NCBI GenBank assembly: GCA_903891095.1
Contig: CAITDI010000036.1
Span: 62,001 to 126,000, forward strand
Reading direction: 5' to 3'
DNA from: an uncultured bacterium
GTDB taxonomy: Bacteria > Planctomycetota > Phycisphaerae > Phycisphaerales > SM1A02
DNA length: 64,000 bases
Below, piece after piece: positions 10,520 through 14,353 of the stretch. The notes beneath the pieces are model-generated. The model was not told the DNA's origin, made no database searches, and saw only the letters and a program-made list of their open reading frames with translations. A program made the translations under genes and the position numbers. Positions within the stretch are counted from its first letter, which is position 1; the number at the start of each line of letters is the position of its first letter.

Positions 10520-11857
10520 ATGTCCGCAGCGCACGAGCATCGATCGCAGCCAGCCGTTCTTCACGGCGACCTTCACGGCGACCTTCACGGCGACCTGAAC
10601 GGCCGCCTTCAGTCGCAGGCGCGCGGCATGTTCGCGCTGCTGGTCTCGATGTGCGACGGGTCGCGCAAGGCTGCGGCGCTGCGCGCGTCGGTCGACATCC
10701 GTTCGTTCGACGCGATGCGCGCGGTCCCGAGCATGGACCTCGTCGCGCGCCTCGGCCGCGCGCTCGGGCTCGATGCGAGCGCGGCGGTCGATGCGATCAG
10801 CGCGGATGCGGTGGGGGCGTCGCGCGCGGGACTCGGACTCGGTCTTGCGCGCGAGCGTGTGCGCGAATTCGTATGCGAGGCCGATCTCGACGACGACGCG
10901 TTCGCACTCGAGTGCGCCGCCGAGGTGATGGCGAAGCAGGCCGCGTTGCCGCGCGACCTCGCGCTCGCGCATCTCGTCCGCGCACGAGCGATGGTCGCGC
11001 GCGGTGCACACGAGTCGGCGATGCACGCGGCGGAGATCGCGCTCGACCTCGCGCTCGACATCGGGCTCGCGTCGGACGATGACGGCGCGCACGATGCGAT
11101 CGTCGCGCAGCTCGCCGAGTCGATCGTGTTCGAGTCGATGCTCGGCTCGCCGTGCGAAGCGCGGCAGGTGCGCGGCGACGCGGCGACCGGTGCGGTCGAA
11201 GCGAAGCTCGCGCGGATGCTTCGACAGGTGCTGGGCGATGGCAGTGCGGTCGGATGCGGATCCGCGTCGCTCGTCGCCCGCCGCGATGCGTGGCGCTTCG
11301 CGCGCCGCGCGCTGGCCGGCACGGGTTCGCCGACAGATGCGCTGCACGAGCTGCGCCAGGCGACCGACCGCGCGGTCGAGCGCCTGCGCGCCGTGGGCGC
11401 TGATCCGCGTTCCCGCCATGACGCCGAGCGCGCGCTGGCGTGGACCGCGTCGATCGCCGCGATCGCCGCACTTCGTCTCCACGGGGCCGGAAGCTGCGGG
11501 CGGCACGCGATGTCGACCATCGTCTCATCCGAGCTCGCGCTCGACGATGCGCTCGACGACGCGATGCGCAAAGACCCGTCGCAAGAGGAACTTGCGGTGA
11601 TCACCCGCGCGCTCTTCACACGCCGGGCGCGCGTCGCGATGTGCGAGTGGTCGACGCGCGCAGAGCTCGGCGAAGTCGACGCACGCACGATCGACGGGAT
11701 CGATCTCGACGAGCTCGTGCGGAGCTCACTCCTCTTTCCGCGCGCGCGAACCTCGCGCGTGTTCGATCAAGTCAACCGCGCAAATAGCCGCGGCGAAATT
11801 CAGCGAGTTCGAAAATTTACGCTTGACGCGTTGTCAAGCGACTGTTGGATGTTGTGA
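10520..11857 (+). CDS. Predicted HTH plus helical-repeat regulator A
   Basis: A 445-residue protein not matched to a named family. Near residue 70 VPSMDLVARLGRALGLDASAAVDAI resembles the last helices of an XRE-type DNA-binding fold. The remaining part is a long run of amphipathic helices with TPR-like spacing (for example ALAHLVRARAMVARGAHESAMHAAEIAL). The next gene has the same architecture and a matching segment, so they look like diverged tandem paralogues. The N terminus carries a HGDLHGDLHGDL repeat from a 12-bp tandem repeat at about 10560-10600, and the true start could be the Met before FALLVSM at residue 37. Function is inferred from architecture only. Confidence 0.6.
   Translation: MSAAHEHRSQPAVLHGDLHGDLHGDLNGRLQSQARGMFALLVSMCDGSRKAAALRASVDIRSFDAMRAVPSMDLVARLGRALGLDASAAVDAISADAVGASRAGLGLGLARERVREFVCEADLDDDAFALECAAEVMAKQAALPRDLALAHLVRARAMVARGAHESAMHAAEIALDLALDIGLASDDDGAHDAIVAQLAESIVFESMLGSPCEARQVRGDAATGAVEAKLARMLRQVLGDGSAVGCGSASLVARRDAWRFARRALAGTGSPTDALHELRQATDRAVERLRAVGADPRSRHDAERALAWTASIAAIAALRLHGAGSCGRHAMSTIVSSELALDDALDDAMRKDPSQEELAVITRALFTRRARVAMCEWSTRAELGEVDARTIDGIDLDELVRSSLLFPRARTSRVFDQVNRANSRGEIQRVRKFTLDALSSDCWML
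10560..10600. repeat. 12-bp tandem repeat inside regulator A
   Basis: The unit CACGGCGACCTT repeats three times and then decays, coding His-Gly-Asp-Leu. It lies in the first 30 codons of regulator A, in a region that may be dispensable or even untranslated. Confidence 0.8.
11820..11840. promoter_or_regulatory. Inverted repeat upstream of regulator B, candidate operator
   Basis: CGCTTGAC-GCGTT-GTCAAGCG is a perfect 8-bp inverted repeat with a 5-bp spacer, located in the last codons of regulator A and ending 70 bp before the regulator B start. The left arm contains TTGACG, which could double as a -35 box. It suits binding by a dimeric HTH protein such as regulator A or B itself; no T-run follows, so a terminator is unlikely. 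Confidence 0.45.
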
Positions 11858-11910
11858 CAAGTCCCATGCTTCACGGCCTCGTGGGCCGTAGGCAGCAGAT
11901 CGGAGGATTC

Positions 11911-13194
11911 ATGCTGACGGACGAAATTGGTGGATTGGAAGCAGCGCGCGAAGCGCTCGCACGCGAAAGGCTCGAGGAATTGCAGGCCCTCGCGCGCACG
12001 TACCGCAACTGGTCGGTCAAGGAACTCGCGCTCGCGCTCGGCCGGCAACCAGGCCGGCTCGTGCCCGAGAGCGGCATGCCCAAGATCGACCTCGTGGTCG
12101 GTCTCGCGAAGGCGCTCGACTGGCCCGTCGATGCCGTAGTCGATCACCTCATGAAGCCAGCAGGCGACGTGCGTCGCGCGCCGATCGCGCACGATGTCGC
12201 CGCCGACTACGCGCGGCTCTACGACGAAAGCCTGCAGAAGCGCCTCGAGCGCGACTACGCCGAGGCGATCCGGCTCGCGGTGCGCGCGCGCGCCGTCGCC
12301 GACAATCCCACGCGGCGCGCGGCGGCGCTCTTTGTCGAGGCGTTCGCGCACGAAGCGGCTGGCTCGTACGTCGAGTCGGTGCGCTGCCTGCGCGATGCTG
12401 TGCGCATCGACGGCGTGTCGCTCAACTGGCGATTGCTCTGCGACGCGCATCTCGCAAACGTGCTGTTCATGCAGGGCCACACCACGCAGGCAGTCGGCAT
12501 CGCGAGCTCGGTCATCGACTACATCGGCAGCGTGAGCGCCGCAGATCCCGTGCTGCAGTCGGCATGCGCCGTCGCGCACTGGGCGCGCGGCCACTCGCTG
12601 CGCACGTCGATCCCGCTCGCGAACTTCGACGCGTGGGGCGTGCTCGCGCAGACCGCGCGCGACCATTTCCGGCGTGCGTCGGAGATCGCCGAGGAGCTCT
12701 CGACGAACGACGCGTTCTCGATGCGCAACCTCACCGCGAGCACCTCGATCGACGCCATCGCGATGGAGCTCGACGCGATCTGCGACGAGCAGGCGCATGA
12801 GGAGGTCGTTCGTCGGCTCGTCGACATCGTCCGCGAGGGCGGCAGCGTCGAGCCCGGCGTGTCGGAGCGCAAGGCGTGGGCGTCGATCGCGCTGGCGAAC
12901 ACGGCCAAGCGGTTCGTCACCGATGCGATGCAGCTGCGCGGCATCCTCGAGCTCGCGTCGGCGGCGCTGCGCGCGCACGCCGTCGCGACCAACAACTGGT
13001 ACTTCGCGCATCGTCACCTGCAGCTTGATTCCGAGCGTCGCCGCTCGCTCGTCGACCACGGCGTCGCGTCGCGTGCGCTCGACGCGACCGAGGCGCGGCT
13101 CGTGGCCGGCGTGCTCGGGCAGATCCCCGTCGCACGCAGCGAGGCGGCGAGCTACTTCGAGCTCTACGCCGCGCAGGAAGGGAGCCGTACATGA
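11911..13194 (+). CDS. Predicted HTH plus helical-repeat regulator B
   Basis: A 427-residue protein started by ATG at 11911 with GGAGG at 5-bp spacing. Residues about 15-75 (LQALARTYRNWSVKELALALGRQPGRL, then IDLVVGLAKALDWPVDAVVDHL) look like an XRE-type helix-turn-helix. From about residue 95 helices recur with TPR-like spacing (YAEAIRLAVRARAVADN, AAALFVEAFAHEAAGSYVESVRCL). The architecture is that of peptide-responsive HTH-TPR regulators, though similarity at the family level cannot be tested here. It shares a core segment with regulator A and overlaps the start of the small exported protein by 4 bp (ATGA). Confidence 0.65.
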   Translation: MLTDEIGGLEAAREALARERLEELQALARTYRNWSVKELALALGRQPGRLVPESGMPKIDLVVGLAKALDWPVDAVVDHLMKPAGDVRRAPIAHDVAADYARLYDESLQKRLERDYAEAIRLAVRARAVADNPTRRAAALFVEAFAHEAAGSYVESVRCLRDAVRIDGVSLNWRLLCDAHLANVLFMQGHTTQAVGIASSVIDYIGSVSAADPVLQSACAVAHWARGHSLRTSIPLANFDAWGVLAQTARDHFRRASEIAEELSTNDAFSMRNLTASTSIDAIAMELDAICDEQAHEEVVRRLVDIVREGGSVEPGVSERKAWASIALANTAKRFVTDAMQLRGILELASAALRAHAVATNNWYFAHRHLQLDSERRRSLVDHGVASRALDATEARLVAGVLGQIPVARSEAASYFELYAAQEGSRT

Positions 13195-13508
13195 CGACGA
13201 TCACCAGACTCAGCAGGATTCGCGGGATCGCGTGCATCGGCGTCGTCGCGCTCGCGGCGATGGTCGGCGCACGCACGTCGGCCGACGGCATCGCGCCGCC
13301 GCCGCCGGGGACCGAGGACACCGCGCCGATCTACTCGCGCGCGCTGTGGCGGTTCTACGACTTCGTCGTGTACCCGAGCTACCTCTCGTGGGTCGAGGCG
13401 GGCGGCGCGCCCGACGACAGCCCCGAGAGCTTCCGGCAGTTCCTCACGAAGCTCGAGATGTCGCAGCAGCTTCGGGATGCGTTGTTCACCATCTACATGA
13501 TGCAGTGA
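13191..13508 (+). CDS. Small exported protein coupled to regulator B
   Basis: A 105-residue protein whose ATG overlaps the stop of regulator B, so it is translationally coupled. Residues 1-31 form a clear signal peptide (basic start, GIACIGVVALAAMVGA core, ending TSADG). The mature part is short and mildly acidic, with aromatic residues (YSRALWRFYDFVVYPSYLSW) and a hydrophobic tail LRDALFTIYMMQ. No family is recognised. Its position straight after an HTH-helical regulator recalls peptide pheromone precursors of RRNPP systems, which is only a positional argument; it could equally be a small periplasmic protein. Confidence 0.6.
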   Translation: MTTITRLSRIRGIACIGVVALAAMVGARTSADGIAPPPPGTEDTAPIYSRALWRFYDFVVYPSYLSWVEAGGAPDDSPESFRQFLTKLEMSQQLRDALFTIYMMQ

Positions 13509-13534: not shown

Positions 13535-13581
13535 CGCCCCCGCCGAGCGACTGTGTGCTCGGCGGGGGCGGTTTCGCTTTT
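13535..13581 (+). terminator. Strong terminator between convergent genes
   Basis: A perfect 14-bp stem CGCCCCCGCCGAGC / GCTCGGCGGGGGCG (13535-13548, 13557-13570) with loop GACTGTGT is followed by GTTTCGCTTTT. It ends the regulator B operon and may also serve the convergent tag gene. Confidence 0.85.
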
Positions 13582-14203: not shown

Positions 14204-14353
14204 GGTGCCTGGCACCAATCTGGCACCATCCACACACCAACCAGGCGAACCTGGTTGGTGCCAGGTGCCGCACCACATGGCGCCCCGTGCTCGGCACCAA
14301 CCGTGTTCGCGTGGTCGGTGCCAGGTTGGTGCGCGGTTGGTGCCAGGCACCAA
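14204..14353. repeat. Cluster of TTGGTGCCAGG inverted repeats
   Basis: About 150 bp packed with direct and inverted copies of TGGTGCC / GGCACCA, often extended to TTGGTGCCAGG. The clearest hairpin is CACCAACCAGG-CGAA-CCTGGTTGGTG at 14235-14260 (11-bp perfect stem, 4-base loop); another palindrome GGTGCCTGGCACC lies at 14204-14216 and GGTGCCAGGCACC at the other end. It lies between the tag and leucine dehydrogenase genes. It looks like a REP-type mobile or structural repeat. Confidence 0.85.

Follow-up and report, generated by a model that had tools for sequence, protein, structure and literature searches.

Does an overlapping gene pair in an uncultured phycisphaeral bacterium encode a regulator together with the exported protein that it senses, and would such a pair belong to the RRNPP pheromone systems? 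The question is raised by a 64,000-nt stretch of contig CAITDI010000036.1 (the window), in which the gene of a helical regulator (gene B) runs into that of a small exported protein (gene S). A reading made from the sequence alone had assigned B an XRE-like domain and a TPR-like repeat region, noted that its stop overlaps the start of the exported 105-residue protein by ATGA, and proposed a peptide-sensing pair of the RRNPP type. The features on which the argument draws are as follows.

10520-11857, + strand: gene A, a diverged paralogue of B, upstream of B (B-family HMM, E 2.4e-11)
11823-11835, + strand: TTGACGCGTTGTC, a -35-like palindrome, candidate operator/promoter of B-S (conserved in the genus)
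11856-11864, + strand: GACAAGTCC, a second conserved element 5′ of B, with a putative regulatory role ([GC]ACWWGTCC in 6/12)
11911-13194, + strand: gene B, HTH-TPR regulator, 427 aa (ORF, alignment, AlphaFold model, fold search)
11962-12156, + strand: HTH (XRE-like) domain of B, residues 18-82 (alignment and model)
12190-13170, + strand: TPR-like superhelix of B, residues 94-420 (model and fold search)
12307-12357, + strand: helix 133-149 of B; in relatives, its positions 141, 145 and 148 vary together with the partner motif
13191-13508, + strand: gene S, predicted exported protein, 105 aa, its start overlapping the B stop by ATGA
13296-13307, + strand: PPPP of S (residues 36-39), at the place taken by H[TS]xQ[DEG] in relatives' partners
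13338-13502, + strand: three-helix domain of S, residues 50-104 (AlphaFold block means 94-98)
13535-13570, no strand assigned: terminator-like hairpin 3′ of S, between the convergent S and tag-like glycosylase genes

The ATGA overlap spans 4 nt at 13191-13194, as the sequence-only reading had it, and a home-made detector accepts the signal peptide of S. Stretches resembling Shine-Dalgarno (SD) sequences precede the starts of both B and S, and in most genomes of the genus an orthologue of A precedes B. Further downstream, an imperfect inverted repeat at 14204-14351 has 59-nt arms that are 81% complementary and is built from GGTGCC/TTGGTGCC units; it lies either 5′ of a minus-strand glycosylase-like ORF or in the region where that ORF starts.

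Fold of the regulator

The domains of B are barely visible to profile searches. Pfam detects no HTH in B and finds TPR_2 below threshold (E 0.035); over 77 family members, TPR_2 is found in 9 and HTH_31 in 1 (E<=0.01). An XRE-like N-terminus is apparent in a 40-member family alignment. The AlphaFold model of B, built from 77 rows with a mean pLDDT of 89.6, is all-helical and consists of an HTH domain and seven TPR-like helix pairs; both domains of the sequence-only reading are thereby recovered. Across the family an N-terminal block, LGRDPTKLVPxSGxPKLDLV, is conserved, and the inner-type A helices of the pairs are more conserved than the B helices.

The earlier reading had proposed, as a check, a fold prediction and a search for an RRNPP-type TPR. 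Comparison of the model with the PDB returns TPR proteins, with Rap, NprR and AimR among the matches. Foldseek places Rap in complex with its pheromone at the top (E 1.4e-3), with LGN and phage Rap also among its best matches and NprR lower. VIA-align places MalT domain III (1hz4) first, with a Z of 18.5 over 290 residues, followed by LGN (17.6), phage Rap (17.2), NprR-NprX (16.4) and AimR (15.0). The predicted fold of B is TPR-like, yet the ranking of matches singles out no pheromone receptors. MalT, like B, uses a helical superhelix within a bacterial transcription factor; it is a small-molecule sensor, and is not known to have an exported partner gene behind it. Searches with B of NCBIfam, PDB sequences and plasmids gave no match, nor did a search of NCBIfam with S or one of PHROGs, and no relatives of known function were found by sequence for either protein. 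In these searches of NCBIfam and PDB sequences, the likeness of B to the named RRNPP receptor families is one of fold only.

A probably folded exported protein

S is 105 aa long, and its counterparts across the genus measure 98-130 aa. In its AlphaFold model residues 1-49 lack helix and strand and have low to middling confidence, and residues 50-104 form three helices. A fold search with S returned nothing convincing in the PDB (best Foldseek E 2.2, VIA Z <=4.8), and a weak HTH_31 match (E 0.035) was treated as chance. Across 78 genus pairs, identity averages 0.65 in B, 0.35 in mature S and 0.29 in the signal part of S. In the closest genus pair, mature S has a dN of 0.08 against a dS of 0.62, and the signal part a dN of 0.20 against a dS of 0.38. 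PPP is invariant in 8/8 aligned genus S proteins. S is thus a constrained and probably folded exported protein, rather than just a vehicle for a short peptide at its end.

The proteins encoded next to related regulators are far more varied. They range from 92 to 523 aa with dissimilar tails; many are 140-200 aa long with PEP-CTERM-like tails, and PAPGxLxLLGLxxxRRRR is found at the end of many. TIGR02595 scored above cut-off in 1 of 7 partners scanned. The sorting tail likens many relatives' partners to PEP-CTERM/exosortase proteins; unlike these, S lacks such a tail in the window and in its genus, its C-terminus being a helix of the domain and its NCBIfam search empty. The genus S proteins, the HTxQ-small class and the PPPSP class (that of G042) look alike by eye; homology is not claimed, and a shared origin was set aside after hhalign gave probabilities of 8, 10 and 2%.

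A recurrent pairing in an undescribed family

B is a member of an undescribed Phycisphaerales family. Matches to B occur in 51 of 101 genomes searched (that of the window plus 100 relatives), with up to 16 per genome, and in 9 of 392 genomes drawn across the phylum, all nine from the same order. A genome scan, in which 80 of 106 confirmed loci were kept, returned named records that are mostly Phycisphaerales, Phycisphaerae or Planctomycetota MAGs, others bearing implausible titles such as Limnohabitans or Chitinophaga. Within the genus, identity to the window's B is 60-68%, and on the regulator tree (a quick tree with some long branches) the window's pair and its genus form a long branch of 2.28.

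The proximity of B and S is repeated throughout. In each of the 13 genus genomes that have a full B, S overlaps it, by -4 in nine and by -1 in four. For the wider family, 169 distinct hits were reduced to 139 complete ones with >600 nt downstream and to 124 after removal of those >=90% identical. An exported-looking ORF directly follows 100 of these 124 members, compared with 57 of 311 control ORFs that flank the scan loci or lie in the window. A partner was called when an ORF with a signal-peptide-like start, by the home-made detector, lay -40 to +160 nt from the regulator; inspection by eye found 4 of the 100 calls false or doubtful (L126, L141, L133, L176), and the detector missed four partners bearing the motif described below. 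The regulator-exported protein arrangement from which the sequence-only reading started thus recurs beyond chance. Partner classes cluster on the regulator tree.

Two loci show unusual duplications. At L150:5247-5923 two S copies stand in tandem, with mature parts 86% identical and unlike signal peptides. At L125 (G042:C18) three regulators or remnants are each followed by a partner that is identical from PPPSP on and different at the N-terminus, as if the mature parts had been shared via gene conversion.

One clade departs from the arrangement. The window's genome holds a second B-family paralogue (L002:1501-2811; G000:C28:22454-23764), followed by a CDF transporter gene. Together with 10 relatives it forms a clade of 11 in which a cation-efflux (CDF) transporter gene comes next and no exported partner adjoins. 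The paralogue is perhaps an orphan receptor; a search of the window's genome for its ligand gave one HTxQ[DE] pattern match, rejected because it does not lie in an exported frame.

A partner motif that tracks residues of the superhelix

The motif H[TS]xQ[DEG] occurs in 52 of the 100 partners, compared with a mean of 0.31 and a maximum of 3 in 100 rounds of shuffling, and in none of 57 control exported ORFs. It lies 8-56 residues past the predicted cleavage site, near the mature N-terminus, and is present in two copies in several partners. It was first noticed by eye in some of the loci later counted; a prior-free gapped k-mer count brings up HT.QD and HT.QE as well, alongside PPPP and two elements of the sorting tails, PAPG and RRRR. 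The motif-bearing partners belong to genera other than that of the window; in the window's genus the S proteins lack the motif and have PPP or PPPP at a like place.

At the DNA level, HTNQD is encoded at 20 sites in 11 genomes, 12 of which lie in an exported ORF beside a B gene; the reversed pattern has no site in the same 11 genomes. Among the eight sites away from B, five are in signal-less frames and two in one large enzyme-like protein. The only exported-looking protein among the eight is L246:1287-3015 (G050:C30), an enzyme-like protein in which HTNQD comes ~20 residues behind the signal peptide; no B gene lies in the stretch retrieved. EVHTNQDPLD, the Ty1 epitope tag, likewise has HTNQD as its core, as given in a passage of PMC11361705. 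The likeness is a coincidence; owing to it, an anti-Ty1 antibody might label native partners such as L165:5212-5712.

Presence of the motif is closely associated with three residues of the regulator. Counted over the 104 members whose partner looks exported, G145 is found in 57/57 regulators with a motif partner versus 10/47 without, N141 in 53/57 versus 10/47, and D148 in 57/57 versus 16/47. Roughly one helical turn separates each of these positions from the next on helix 133-149, which opens a TPR pair. First helices of TPR pairs line the concave side in TPR proteins.

Shared descent could produce such an association, and it was weighed by simulating the partner trait along the regulator tree. 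Across 226 positions the family-wise p is 0.001 for G145, 0.028 for N141 and 0.043 for D148. For G145 it is 0.004 without the window genus and 0.019 with the CDF clade counted as motif-less. In this first simulation the grid of rates was coarse and the best-fitting value sat at its lower end; a cleaned run widened the grid and added two rate settings. With the four dubious partners removed, the p for G145 is 0.0003-0.0027 depending on the rates used, and under one further rate setting of the cleaned run N141 and D148 reach 0.07. Strictly independent pairs on supported branches number six, too few to reach p 0.05. That other groups retain the consensus of the motif group was discarded as evidence, since the motif group itself defines that consensus and the comparison is circular.

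The window's own pair, a derived branch, has no motif, lacks most of the linked residues and has an altered groove. The key evidence therefore comes from its relatives; a ligand surface of its own would be needed here, and any mechanism for the window's pair is an extrapolation.

Candidate control elements

Of 12 aligned genus regions upstream of B, four contain the pattern TTGACRCGTNGTC exactly and three more with one mismatch; [GC]ACWWGTCC follows it in 6 of the 12. The site upstream of B lies inside the end of gene A and is the single occurrence of the pattern in the window's genome. Its -35-like palindrome, TTGACGCGTTGTC, is a candidate operator. No sigma-70 consensus match was found near B, and in a search for a family-wide operator no palindrome proved common to 120 upstream regions of the B family. 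An A6GGC element is recurrent in part of the B-family tree. In the form GA6GGCA it recurs 5′ of B genes of the sorting-tail clade (L158, L159, L164, L179, L111, L101 and others), with a CGTATA-like sequence ~30 nt beyond it; the two are a possible operator and promoter.

A proposed cognate pair, a linked operon or a pheromone

The recurrent pairing and a partner motif that tracks TPR residues make B and S look like a cognate pair whose groove reads the partner, and a receptor-like pairing is likely. The full reading is tentative and put a little short of even: that B and S are a cognate regulator and exported protein, that B controls the B-S operon, and that its TPR superhelix recognizes the partner. 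B would bind near its own promoter through the HTH domain and so control the overlapping operon to which it belongs. The superhelix would recognize the partner directly, as unexported precursor or as fragment, and expression of B-S would follow the amount or export state of the partner. If recognition takes place wholly in the cytoplasm, unexported precursor would signal that export is blocked or saturated; alternatively, a fragment might be re-imported by an Opp-type importer and then meet the TPR groove. The evidence as a whole favors neither precursor sensing nor a re-imported pheromone. The N-proximal motif, the folded mature part and the sorting tails lean towards the precursor or whole protein, and the presence of the five-residue motif in two copies points rather to a peptide ligand. 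The motif-less branch of the window may work likewise with its own ligand surface.

Several observations count against a cognate pair, among them the absence from the window's own pair of the motif and most linked residues. The CDF clade of 11 retains groove residues 141, 145 and 148 with no exported partner adjoining; HTH position R36 is likewise linked to the motif (phi 0.62), and the independent pairs are only six; and homology among the small partner classes was not upheld by hhalign. A wider and more doubtful proposal is that Phycisphaerales possess a separate, non-RRNPP set of HTH-TPR receptors, each reading an N-proximal motif of its own exported and often surface-anchored partner. H[TS]xQ[DE], or a lineage-specific replacement, would then serve as a private self-sensing code for exported proteins.

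The strongest alternative, though an unlikely one, is that the two genes share only an operon. B would regulate genes of exported surface or periplasmic proteins on another signal, the motif would have an extracellular role, and its tie to the TPR residues would be inherited by descent. The great diversity of the partners, up to 523 aa, fits this explanation, as do the clustering of their classes on the regulator tree, the clade that adjoins a cation-efflux transporter gene instead, and the scores of MalT and LGN, as high as those of pheromone receptors. It is opposed by the simulation, in which the link between motif and residues exceeds what the tree leads one to expect, and by the three strongest residues, which include one face of a TPR helix.

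In RRNPP systems the propeptide gene lies next to the receptor gene (PMC10075063, PMC9765709), and the mature peptide is re-imported and bound by the receptor (PMC10075063). Passages of PMC10075063 specify a propeptide of 10-100 aa (21-50 aa in validated cases), secretion via SEC, a receptor of 250-500 aa with tetratricopeptide repeats, and direct adjacency of the genes. Measured by those passages, B has a fitting length (427 aa) and, by predicted fold and PDB matches, with Pfam below threshold, the tetratricopeptide architecture. By the home-made detector S has the signal for SEC secretion, and the genes are directly adjacent, with the 4-nt overlap in the window and an overlap in 13/13 genus genomes with a full B. 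At 105 aa, S narrowly exceeds the size range of the same passages. As S is >100 aa, has a mature part predicted to be a folded, conserved three-helix domain and has relatives with sorting tails, the pair is not RRNPP by the criteria published there.

The likenesses to Rap-Phr, NprR-NprX, PlcR-PapR and AimR-AimP are a 250-500 aa regulator with an HTH (in most) and a TPR-like superhelix, a gene of an exported protein directly downstream and often overlapping, and many paralogous pairs per genome. Unlike those systems, the partner exceeds 100 aa in the window and reaches 523 aa among relatives, with a probably folded and constrained mature part, an N-proximal motif and, in many relatives, PEP-CTERM-like tails; the host belongs to Planctomycetota, not Firmicutes, and no sequence similarity of B to the named receptors was found in NCBIfam or PDB sequences. 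An RRNPP-like pheromone, in which the partner is cut outside and an oligopeptide transporter brings a short peptide (H[TS]xQ[DE] in relatives, some other piece in the window) back into the cell to be bound in the TPR groove, is improbable: the top Foldseek match to Rap with pheromone, the NprR and AimR matches, the RRNPP-like gene order, the two motif copies in several partners and two SBP_bac_5 proteins in the window's genome favor it, but S (98-130 aa in the genus) exceeds the published range, its mature part is a constrained folded domain, the motif is N-proximal in the mature part and not C-terminal, and many partners have sorting tails.

The sequence-only proposal is thus to be divided. 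A sensing pair remains in keeping with the HTH/TPR fold, the overlapping exported partner, the family-wide pairing and the covariation of motif and TPR residues, all of which fit a sensor and its ligand. Its RRNPP-type propeptide is not retained, because S is above the size range, mature S is predicted to be folded and is under purifying selection, and relatives have sorting tails.

Significance

Literature searches for RRNPP in Planctomycetes found none, and such a pair is not described in the literature found on quorum sensing or peptides in Phycisphaerae, on communication in Planctomycetes or on HTH-TPR proteins in Planctomycetota. If B and S are sensor and ligand, they would represent TPR-type peptide or protein sensing in a Gram-negative phylum, absent from the literature searched. 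Because a candidate ligand motif and candidate contact residues are named, the proposal is directly testable. If true, it would provide a working hypothesis for a whole family of unnamed planctomycete proteins, and the pairing suggests a so far undescribed way for a bacterium to sense its own exported protein.
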